NCBI RefSeq assembly: GCF_000328525.1
Contig: NC_019964.1
Location: 2,604,001-2,668,000, forward strand
Direction: 5' to 3'
Origin: Halovivax ruber XH-70
GTDB taxonomy: Archaea; Halobacteriota; Halobacteria; Halobacteriales; Natrialbaceae
Length of the DNA: 64,000 bases
Below, one piece after another: positions 19,040 through 62,446 of the stretch; position 1 is the first letter of the stretch; each line of letters begins with the position of its first letter. A program made the translations under genes and the position numbers. A model generated the notes under the pieces. The model was not told where the DNA came from. It searched no databases and saw nothing but the letters and a program-made list of their open reading frames with translations.

Positions 19040-19516
19040 TATTGTTATTCGTAGGTTTTGGTCGACGGGTGCGTCAATGAACAGGCCCCCTGTGTGCACT
19101 CGACGCATTCATCTGATGATAAAAACGACACAGACACGCACCGGACTCACCCGCTCCGTCGCCTCCTCGAACCCACACGGCTCGCGGGCTACGCTGTTAC
19201 GTGACCGACAATCAGCGGGTTTCGCTCCGTTCGACCTCGGCGTTCCCACTGCCAATCTAAATCAAAAAGCCGCTCCCTTCGGTCGTGCTCGCGGGTCACT
19301 CCGTTCCCCGTTCGCGTAACCGAGGTTCCCGCTCGCGATTCCGAGGCGGAGAGTAGAGCGAGGCGCCTCGTCACGCTCGCTCACGGGTCGTTCCTCCCCG
19401 TTCGCGTAACCGAGGTCTTCGCTACGCTCAGACCTCGCTCGCTCCGAACCGCACGACTCGCGGGTCACTCCGTTCCCCGCTCGCTGTTTCGGGATCCTTA
19501 CTACGTTCGGATCCCG
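19040..19516. repeat. Gene-free stretch with haloarchaeal hairpin repeats
   Basis: No credible gene lies between 18981 and 19519. The right half is made of repeated phrases such as CGGGTCACTCCGTTCCCCG (twice, the second with one change) and CCCGTTCGCGTAACCGAGGT (twice). It contains two perfect hairpins: CGAGGTCT/AGACCTCG (19411-19437, loop TCGCTACGCTC) and CGGGATCC/GGATCCCG (19490-19516, loop TTACTACGTTC). The second ends two bases before the etfA stop codon. A related block lies at about 62206-62300. Confidence 0.7.
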
Positions 19517-19518
19517 CC

Positions 19519-20475
19519 CTACTGGAACTCTTCGATCAACGCCGGCACGACGTCGAAGAGGTCGTCGTGAATCGCGTAGTCGGCGATGTCCATGATCGGG
19601 GCGTTGGGGTCGGTGTTGATCGCGACGATCGTGTCCGAGCCCTTCATGCCGGCGACGTGCTGGACGGCGCCGGAGATGCCGATGGCGATGTAGACATCGG
19701 GTGTGACGACCTTCCCGGACTGGCCGACCTGGCGGTTCGCGGGGAGCCAGCCGTTGTCGACGATCGGTCGCGACGACGAGAGCGTGGCGTCGAGTGCGTC
19801 GGCGAGGTCGCGAATCAGATCCAGGTTCTCCTCCTCTTCGATCCCGCGGCCGATCGAGACGAGCAGGTCGGCCTCGCTGATGTCGACGTCGCCGCCGGCG
19901 ACCTCCTCGAAGCCGGTGACCGTCGAGCCGACGGCGTCCTCGTCGATCTCGGCGTCGAAGGCCTCGATCGGGGCGTCGCCAGTGCCTTCGGCTTCGGGCC
20001 ACTCGCCTTCCCGGATCGTGGCGAGGGCAGTGCCGGCATCGAGTTCCGTCGTCGTCTCGACCTTGCCGCCGTACATCTCGCGCGTCGCGATCAACGAGTC
20101 GCCGTCGACGGCGAGGTCGACGACGTCGGTCACGATCGACAGGTCGAGGCGCCCGGCGACCGCCGGTGCGTAATCGAGTCCGTTGACGCTGTTGGGAACG
20201 AGGACGTACTGCGGGTCGATCGCGTCGACGAGTTGCTCGATCGCCTGGACGTAGACGTCGTGGTTGAACTCCTCGCCGTCTGAGACGGTGTGAACGACGT
20301 CGACGCCCTCGCGAGCGAGTTTCTCGCCGAATTCGTCGACCGCGCCACTGATGACGGCCAGGTGCAGGTCACCGTCCGTCTCGTCGGCGAGTTCGCGCCC
20401 CGCCGTCGCGAGTTCGTAGCTCACCGGTCGGAGTTCGCCGCGGCGGTGATCGGCGATCGCGAGGACGTCCGTCAT
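19519..20475 (-). CDS. etfA: Electron transfer flavoprotein subunit alpha
   Basis: 318 residues. The C-terminal FAD-binding domain carries the family signature: [20 protein letters not shown], then [20 protein letters not shown] and [17 protein letters not shown]. With EtfB it accepts electrons from acyl-CoA and other flavin dehydrogenases and passes them to a membrane quinone reductase. Its ATG overlaps the etfB stop (ATGA). A candidate membrane acceptor of the EMO/EtfD type is encoded at 57041-59257. The stop codon is followed at once by a strong hairpin (19490-19516). Confidence 0.93.
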
Positions 20476-29259: not shown

Positions 29260-29333
29260 GGGCTCGTGGTCTAGCTGGTTATGACGTGGCCTTTACAAGG
29301 CCGAGGTCGGTGGTTCGAATCCGCCCGAGCCCA
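29260..29333 (+). tRNA. tRNA-Val, anticodon UAC
   Basis: 74 nt, folds as a cloverleaf: acceptor GGGCTCG/CGAGCCC with discriminator A, anticodon stem TGGCC/GGCCG around loop TTTACAA (anticodon TAC), T-stem GGTGG/CCGCC with loop TTCGAAT. No intron, CCA not encoded. Its 3' end is followed after 5 nt by a perfect 8-bp hairpin, and two partial copies of its 3' end lie downstream. Confidence 0.95.
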
Positions 29334-29338
29334 CTCCT

Positions 29339-29367
29339 GCCGGCGCGAACAATTGGTGAGCGCCGGC
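29339..29367 (+). repeat. Hairpin 5 nt after tRNA-Val
   Basis: Perfect stem GCCGGCGC/GCGCCGGC with loop GAACAATTGGTGA. The same design follows tRNA-Phe and tRNA-Pro (loops GAGCAACACCGCGA and GAGCAAACTCGCGA). Confidence 0.75.
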
Positions 29368-29380
29368 TGCGTGACGTGAG

Positions 29381-29557
29381 GACGGATTCGAATAAGACGC
29401 CACCGAGCGTAGCGAGGTGACGGCGTGGTTCGAATCCGCCCGAGCCCATAATTCTGCCGCGAGCAATCCGCAAGCGGCAGAACTCTGATTCGAGGGCGAT
29501 TCGAATGAGACGGCACCGAGCGGAGCGAGGTGACGGCGTCGTTCGAATCCGCCCGAG
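29381..29557 (+). repeat. Two tandem units carrying copies of the tRNA-Val 3' end
   Basis: Unit one ends with an exact copy (29426-29448) of the last 23 nt of tRNA-Val. A second hairpin (29452-29482; stem TTCTGCCGC/GCGGCAGAA, loop GAGCAATCCGCAA) follows 3 nt later, and unit two ends with 17 matching nt (29541-29557). Both units share a body containing CACCGAGCG(T/G)AGCGAGGTG. No gene is present between the tRNA and leuA. Confidence 0.8.
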
Positions 29558-29609
29558 TTCGTGCTGCGTACGTCGCGTTCGACGGCAAAGGTTGGGCCGA
29601 CCCCCTAGG

Positions 29610-42174: not shown

Positions 42175-42248
42175 GCCGCCTTAGCTCAGACTGGGAGAGC
42201 ACTCGACTGAAGATCGAGCTGTCCCCGGTTCAAATCCGGGAGGCGGCA
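42175..42248 (+). tRNA. tRNA-Phe, anticodon GAA
   Basis: 74 nt. Acceptor GCCGCCT/AGGCGGC with discriminator A, D-stem GCTC/GAGC, anticodon stem CTCGA/TCGAG with loop CTGAAGA, T-stem CCCGG/CCGGG with loop TTCAAAT. No intron. A T-rich CCTTTTTTG ~30 nt upstream may be its promoter. Its 3' end is followed by a hairpin and several degraded copies. Confidence 0.96.
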
Positions 42249-42252
42249 TACT

Positions 42253-42282
42253 TTTGCGGCGAGCAACACCGCGAGCCGCAAA
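42253..42282 (+). repeat. Hairpin 4 nt after tRNA-Phe
   Basis: Perfect 8-bp stem TTTGCGGC/GCCGCAAA, loop GAGCAACACCGCGA. Same layout as after tRNA-Val and tRNA-Pro. Confidence 0.75.
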
Positions 42283-42294
42283 TATGTGATCCGA

Positions 42295-42313
42295 CCGGAT
42301 TTGATCTATACCG
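42295..42313 (+). repeat. Left copy of a 19-nt direct repeat flanking a small island
   Basis: CCGGATTTGATCTATACCG matches 44381-44399 at 18 of 19 positions. The first part is the reverse complement of the tRNA-Phe T-arm. The two copies bracket the Doc pair and a membrane protein gene. Confidence 0.55.
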
Positions 42314-42347
42314 GAAAGGCGCAGCGAACCGAGCATTTACGGACGTA

Positions 42348-42482
42348 GTTCACAATCCGGGAGGCGGCATTTCTATTGCGGATAGACGGGGAATCGGGTC
42401 TGAGAGCGGCAGATCACCTGAAACAGCCGATCGAATTTGTATGAGACGAGCTGGGTGCAGGGGTTCAAATTGGGATGCGGCC
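42348..42482 (+). repeat. Two degraded copies of the tRNA-Phe 3' end
   Basis: 42348-42369 repeats the last 21 nt of tRNA-Phe with one inserted C in the T-loop (TTCACAATCC). 42463-42482 is a weaker copy (GGTTCAAATTGGGATGCGGC). A further fragment, GTTCAAATCCGGGA, is at 43472-43485, beyond the toxin genes. No gene is seen between the tRNA and 42597. Confidence 0.65.
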
Positions 42483-61904: not shown

Positions 61905-62373
61905 GCGATGTCCGCCGACTGGACGCTGGCCGAGGCACACTACTGACGCCCTGCGCGTCCACGAACGTCGGTAGCGGCCGCTCTGGTACGAGTACCGGAG
62001 ACCATGATCGAACGCGACTGCAGATAACCTACGCCCGAGAACCTGCTTGCGTCGCTCCCAGACCCTCGGTCTGATTCAAACCGCTTGTTTCCACGCTCCG
62101 CTCCTCACATCCGTTCGTCGCGGAGAAATGCGAGCGCGCGGATTGTGAACCACGCCGAGACGGTCGCTCGCCACGCGCACGGGTACACCGTTCGCATCGC
62201 GGTTCTCACTTCGTTCACGGGTCGTTTCACTCCCCGTTCACACAAACGAGGCCTCGCGTACGCTCGGCCTCGCACTCGTTCCGAACCGCGCTACGCTCGC
62301 GCTGCGACTCGTCTCCTTCAAATCGCGCTCGTCACGTGCTCGCCGCTCGCGAGTTTGCTCGCGGCGAGAGAAG
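61905..62373. repeat. 469-nt gene-free stretch with hairpins and a tRNA-Pro remnant
   Basis: No credible gene. 62135-62151 repeats tRNA-Pro T-arm sequence with one inserted base (giving TTCACAATCC on the minus strand). 62206-62300 resembles the repeats at 19370-19460. A hairpin CGAGGCC/GGCCTCG (62247-62272, loop TCGCGTACGCTC) is included. 62339-62368 is a perfect hairpin, 5 nt past the tRNA-Pro 3' end (stem CTCGCCGC/GCGGCGAG, minus-strand loop GAGCAAACTCGCGA). Confidence 0.65.
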
Positions 62374-62446
62374 TGGGACCGCGCGGATTTGAACCGCGGT
62401 CACGGGCACCCAAGGCCCGAAGTATACCAGACTAACCCACGGTCCC
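62374..62446 (-). tRNA. tRNA-Pro, anticodon UGG
   Basis: 73 nt. Acceptor GGGACCG/CGGTCCC with discriminator A, anticodon stem CGGGC/GCCCG with loop CTTGGGT (anticodon TGG), T-stem CGCGG/CCGCG with loop TTCAAAT. No intron, CCA not encoded. The 3' end is followed by a hairpin as with the other two tRNAs. Confidence 0.93.

Follow-up and report, generated by a model that had tools for sequence, protein, structure and literature searches.

Short non-coding units, each carrying a copy of the 3' end of the gene that it follows, lie directly behind most tRNA genes of the haloarchaeon Halovivax ruber XH-70 and recur throughout the class Halobacteria. These units are probably mobile or recombination-driven, array-forming non-coding DNA cassettes, which would insert at T-loop-like motifs and duplicate their target. 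The window, a stretch of 64,000 nucleotides, is part of this 3.22-Mb haloarchaeal genome, and all three of its tRNA genes (Val, Phe and Pro) carry cassette units.

The tRNA-Val(TAC) gene (29260..29333, forward strand; ARAGORN; Rfam RF00005, 63.5 bits) has a tail, GTTCGAATCCGCCCGAGCCCA, that runs from the T-loop to the discriminator. It is followed on the same strand by two tandem units of about 115 bp. Unit 1 starts with hairpin 1 at 29339..29367, which consists of an 8-bp stem, a tandem GA/GA mismatch, 2 bp and a 5-nt loop. B' (GGATTCGAAT, 29384..29393) is an inverted copy of the T-arm, which pairs with B and is fitted to the local T-stem. The module M (29394..29427) contains the hairpin ACCGAGCGTAGCGAGGT, and M modules are common to several tRNA loci. 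B, the copy of the tRNA tail, is exact at 21 of 21 positions (29428..29448), and the exact match covers 23 nt when counted from 29426. Unit 2 has its hairpin 1 (TTCTGCCGC..GCGGCAGAA) at 29452..29482, B' (GGCGATTCGAAT) at 29495..29506, M at 29507..29540 and a decayed B at 29541..29561, in which 17 nt are exact and 3 of 21 positions are mismatched. Compared with dinucleotide-shuffled sequence, both units have the better fold (z of -4.4 and -4.5). The first-pass annotation had described an 8-bp hairpin behind the tRNA, an exact copy of the last 23 tRNA nucleotides, a second hairpin with a 17-nt partial copy, and a tandem repeat of tRNA end, hairpin and body. All of these stand, and the stem of the first hairpin additionally holds an internal tandem G.A/A.G mismatch with two inner pairs. 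It had missed that each body opens with the inverted T-arm copy that pairs with the direct copy, so that the tRNA-end copy forms one strand of a second, larger hairpin spanning both body and copy. The unit behind tRNA-Phe (42175-42248) occupies 42249..42369 on the forward strand, with a TTCACAATC variant as its B at 42349-42369. The unit behind tRNA-Pro (62374-62446, reverse strand) occupies 62129..62373 on the reverse strand, with a long nested M and its B at 62129-62149.

The units share one order, that is hairpin 1, spacer, B' (inverted T-arm copy), the variable hairpin module M, and B (direct copy of the tRNA 3' end), with B spanning the ~21 bases from the T-loop to the discriminator of the host tRNA. 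They are non-coding, regular in length (about 75-225 bp), always on the tRNA-sense strand and directly 3' of the tRNA. Hairpin 1 has the layout stem-GA-2 bp-loop-2 bp-GA-stem, in which the internal tandem G.A mismatch is conserved; hairpins with tandem GA/GA occur 12 times in the window, against a mean of 0.7 for other mismatch types. B' is partially fitted to its local site, matching the local T-stem at 2.14 of 4 positions versus 1.37 for swapped T-stems, mainly at the first three positions. An extension of B' into the acceptor stem was considered and rejected, its signal being weak. Away from any tRNA, GA/GA tandem-mismatch hairpins (e.g. CGAGGTCTGAGCGTAGCGAAGACCTCG, GCGGGGAACGGAGTGACCCGC) also cluster at 19250-19520 on the reverse strand. 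Since these hairpins match the style of M modules, the GA/GA motif is a wider haloarchaeal repeat.

In the whole Halovivax genome, units were found at 23 of 41 tRNA genes when up to 6 of 21 mismatches were allowed in B and at 21 when up to 4 were allowed, the detection depending on the chosen limit. Unbiased whole-genome occupancy was 23/41 in Halovivax, 20/29 in the same-genus genome G003, 17/30 in G096 and 10/31 in G256. Each B matches its own tRNA: at no more than 3 of 21 mismatches a local copy was present at 116 of 171 tRNA loci from several genomes, and swapped tails gave 0 in every trial. Some of these loci were picked for a matching element, so that 116/171 is not an unbiased occupancy. 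At no more than 6 of 21 mismatches about 25 of the 171 loci would match by chance, and lone weak matches are therefore not to be over-read. A strict B'-M-B pattern returned eight unit sites in the Halovivax genome, every one at tRNAs, and a reversed-pattern control returned zero; the remaining matches were one inside a tRNA gene and two isolated, chance-like ones. The tRNA-Ser(GCT) gene has no unit in G000, G003, G096 and G256, and a protein gene starts within ~70 nt downstream of it.

When the strict pattern was applied to 242 Halobacteria genomes, it was found in 236 of them, typically 2-20 times, and the reversed control stayed near 0. In other classes of the phylum it was at background level. 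One of the six genomes without a match was checked tRNA by tRNA and has clear units at several tRNAs, so that it was rejected as a true negative. Of 60 sites taken from other families, tRNA genes account for 56. A single M type of 26 nt (CAGGGAGSAGCNNNGCTSCGACCGTG) occurs 3' of about 20 tRNA species, flanked by the local tail, which is often free of mismatches. It was found in Natrinema, Natrialba, Haloterrigena, Halorubrum, Haloferax larsenii, Natronomonas, Halosimplex, Halonotius and others, and M is kept almost letter for letter between families. The possibility raised in the first-pass annotation that the pattern is unique to tRNA-Val thus does not hold, most tRNA genes of the genome having units, and the small repeating element using tRNA ends that it had proposed is indeed a dispersed family, present at most tRNA genes and class-wide. 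No paper describing such arrays was found in open-licence PMC full text, a scope that makes this weak evidence of absence, and the general phenomenon is apparently undescribed in the literature.

A viral origin was rejected after pattern scans of IMG/VR, which returned chance coding matches or none, and of phages, which returned none relevant. The plasmid scan gave one real match, a type-B M that lies within a degenerate tRNA-Cys in a cluster of tRNA genes. It is on the Haloarcula halophila plasmid NZ_CP119561.1 (L171 2990-3060), where M lies inside the tRNA-Cys gene just 5' of the T-loop. The cluster has more than 20 tRNA genes and adjoins a TROVE (Ro60-like) gene. A tRNA-Gly gene of the plasmid (L171 2057-2184) is interrupted near the anticodon loop by an apparent reverse-complement GA-hairpin module, and such an insertion is a possible source of a tRNA intron.

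Arrays are not confined to tRNA genes. In Natronorubrum texcoconense a protein gene (..GYRFEPV*) has a three-unit cassette array at its 3' end, and the repeat of this array is 21 nt of the gene end, stop codon included; the gene end at the array site is GGTTCGAACCGGTCTGA. A three-unit array is also present at the same protein gene in G020, and each of the two genomes has its own synonymous codon (GAA or GAG) in every repeat. A third genome has an apparent fossil hairpin at this gene end, while in about 25 relatives this gene end is present and the site is empty. These occupied arrays belong to one family only and may go back to one single gain. The site is palindromic, so that B' is ambiguous there. 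One further unit (L319) lies 3' of a tRNA 3' fragment. The motif GTTCGARCC / GTTCRAATC is common to tRNA and protein-gene sites, and the sequence after it, whichever it is, supplies the copied end. The arrays therefore do not depend on tRNA function.

The arrays differ between close relatives, as seen in one species pair, the Halovivax genome and G003. The order of units is swapped at Val-CAC, Ser-CGA, Lys-TTT and Ser-TGA. At Gly-CCC, hairpin 1 of one unit is fused to the M of the next unit via B'. Whole-unit counts differ at Phe (1 versus 3), Asp, Glu, Lys-CTT, Arg-CCT and Gln, while behind these arrays the two species have the same flank or a recognisably homologous one. Between sister species, units can be wholly different at the same tRNA, and some tRNAs have none. 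At Phe, Glu and Met the new units adjoin the tRNA and the old unit common to both species lies distally; Gly-GCC shows the opposite, with a shared proximal unit and a different distal one. In arrays of at least two units, the last B is the poorer copy in 36 cases and the first in 6 (p = 4e-5). The polarity is a trend that comes from few loci.

Modules were also exchanged between loci. The nearest relative was at another tRNA for 46 of 74 M modules and for 12 of 38 copies of hairpin 1; M travels between tRNA loci, and hairpin 1 mostly stays with its tRNA. A T-loop variant, TTCACRATC (GTTCACAATC in place of GTTCAAATC, a one-base change), is frequent in B copies of different families and occurs at seven tRNA species (Phe, Lys-TTT, Lys-CTT, Thr, Pro, Val-GAC and Tyr). 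In nearly all of these copies the T-stem and the acceptor part are local. Because the variant is shared and the rest is local, the change from travelling to locally copied sequence may fall within the T-loop.

Hairpin 1 covaries strongly, with 894 Watson-Crick pairs versus 543 expected in 147-155 distinct copies, and its inner pair is A-T in 65 and G-C in 46. G.T is down to 0.47 of expectation and A.C to 0.40. Isolated non-Watson-Crick pairs (GT:AC) were 22:15 in hairpin 1 and 47:34 in B'.B, whereas the tRNA acceptor stems in these data gave 11:0. Selection on RNA should leave G.U better tolerated than A.C; this is not seen, which suggests that the hairpins are DNA-level structures. Computed as DNA, the sense strand of hairpin 1 came out slightly more stable than the antisense strand in 96 of 143 cases. 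The units might instead be functional RNAs, in which case the tRNA transcript would read into them and be processed to small RNAs, with selection keeping the hairpins and the tail copy. The same covariation would be expected from this, as would the constant tRNA-sense strand and the position directly behind the tRNA, and an RNA role is possible because the E. coli RtT element is annotated as a processed small RNA. However, the stems lack the G.U preference that tRNA acceptor stems show, sister species have wholly different units or none at the same tRNA, the protein-gene arrays copy that gene with no tRNA, and an Rfam search of the units gave no family match. We consider an RNA role unlikely.

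It is somewhat less improbable, if still doubtful, that the units are a neutral or mildly useful DNA structure (a terminator, an insulator or a decoy attachment site) shuffled by homologous recombination and gene conversion only, haloarchaea being polyploid and mating promiscuously. The 21-bp direct repeats allow unequal exchange, the fusion at B' was seen at Gly-CCC, hairpin 1 mostly stays with its tRNA, and Cas1 and Y1 are missing from array-bearing genomes. Tail homology together with mating and homologous recombination could yield the replacement of proximal units too. What recombination alone does not give is a local tail copy when M reaches a new tRNA species or a protein gene, and the near letter-for-letter conservation of M across families also speaks against it. 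Homologous recombination through the tails is therefore a real alternative for the turnover of units and a weaker one for new sites. Remnants of integrase-driven elements (proviruses or integrative plasmids) that repeatedly integrated at tRNA genes would suit the preference of archaeal integrases for tRNA 3' ends (PMC8371274). The repeated integration suggested in the first-pass annotation is not what the units look like in the prophage or island sense: they are short and regular with a conserved internal anatomy, have no coding content and no integrase within 75-225 bp, and are absent from the phage and IMG/VR searches, so that this origin is very improbable. Decayed second tRNA genes, raised there as well, would explain that the copied piece is tRNA 3' sequence, but no tRNA homology extends beyond the tail from T-loop to discriminator, this tail is repeated and comes with an inverted copy and hairpins, and the same copies lie behind many tRNA species and a protein gene. 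This explanation is thereby refuted.

In the preferred reading, that of mobile or recombination-driven cassettes, a cassette sits directly 3' of a T-loop-like motif (GTTCRAAYC), nearly always that of a tRNA T-arm. It carries a copy of ~21 bp of host sequence from the motif onward, which leaves the host gene intact. The tail copy would then serve as a new target, so that cassettes stack into arrays, with new units arising beside the host gene and old ones decaying at the far end. B, as direct copy, and B', with its inverted T-loop core, would be the sites through which units are gained, lost, reordered and recombined, and M hairpins would move among tRNA loci while hairpin 1 remained mostly fixed to its tRNA. 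The hairpins would act as DNA, perhaps single-stranded, and the copying would be done by a recombinase or a replication process. Of ten array-bearing genomes, five (G000, G003, G008, G020 and G071) have no resident Cas1, and the array-bearing G003 and G004 have no Y1/HUH transposase; neither enzyme is required as a driver. A tyrosine recombinase (PF00589) is present in 10 of 10, which is compatible with, and not evidence for, such a role; tyrosine recombinases or homologous recombination on short repeats are possible drivers. No excised or donor intermediate and no responsible enzyme was seen. A MITE was also considered and rejected, as the units have no terminal inverted repeats of a known transposon and the sole large inverted pair, B'/B, tracks the local host site.

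The closest known system is RtT of E. coli. At tyrT/tyrV it forms tandem units of 178 bp. Each contains a GAGCGNNNGCGAG-type hairpin (GAGCGCCAGCGAG), an inverted copy of 10 nt of the tail and, at its end, 19 nt that exactly match the 3' end of tRNA-Tyr. An RtT-annotated unit behind tRNA-Pro has 19 of 19 positions of the local Pro tail, GAGCGAAGCGAG and a shorter inverted piece, and RtT-like units behind tRNA-Lys have the Lys tail at 18 of 19, with one mismatch. Unannotated, strain-variable RtT-like units lie between the tRNA genes of the lysT operon (L331 667-801, L332 667-812), and one set of them belongs to a plasmid-borne version of this chromosomal tRNA cluster. The number of RtT places varies among strains from 1 to 14 per genome, and an ST131 strain has exactly one unit fewer than another strain at tRNA-Pro, with intact flanks. 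RtT (the RttR small RNA) resembles the haloarchaeal units in its tandem arrangement, its copy of the own tRNA tail, its inverted tail copy and its GA-mismatch hairpin. In contrast, RtT is found at few tRNAs, copies from AATCC including the encoded CCA, has one M family and is an annotated RNA, whereas the haloarchaeal units are at over half of tRNA genes, copy from GTTC, have many M types, also occur at a protein gene and have no Rfam match. The two may be homologous or convergent. RtT, the known kind, seems not to have been understood as a tail-copying cassette before.

Integrons have cassette arrays in which cassettes are stacked, the recombination site is a folded inverted repeat and modules are reordered, as in the haloarchaeal arrays; unlike integrons, the latter have no cassette genes and their repeated site copies a local host gene. 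Casposons and CRISPR arrays grow in a polar manner beside a leader-like host sequence and duplicate the adjacent repeat; the haloarchaeal cassettes may do likewise, given the proximal new units at Phe, Glu and Met and the decay gradient, with Gly-GCC to the contrary. The cassettes differ from them in having no Cas1 in five array genomes, no coding content and a duplicated piece that includes the T-loop. The casposase of A. boonei recognises TCAAATC, a T-loop sequence, near the 3' end of tRNA-Pro and produces a 14-15-bp duplication (PMC6614799), which is a striking precedent for T-loop-guided insertion with target duplication. Among haloarchaeal mobile repeats, PATEs (IS200/IS605-derived) and the other small repeats of Haloquadratum are likewise short, palindrome-bearing and free of a transposase (PMC3119063). 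Unlike the cassettes described here, they are not tied to gene 3' ends, do not duplicate a target and do not form local-repeat arrays. As a more tentative proposal, the haloarchaeal and E. coli units could belong to a cross-domain class of mobile DNA, in which a T-loop-like motif is recognised, hairpin DNA is inserted, the host gene end is duplicated and polar arrays form without Cas1; RtT would then be a sparse or domesticated member and not primarily a small RNA gene.

If these readings are true, most tRNA genes of an archaeal class would be flanked on the 3' side by apparently undescribed, fast-turning cassettes, which would generate variation between strains and provide a natural marker of recent recombination. 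RtT of E. coli, an annotated tRNA-linked small RNA, would be one case of a wider process of tRNA-tail copying. How an array adopts the end of a host gene as its repeat, a question common to casposons and the origin of CRISPR arrays, would become testable.
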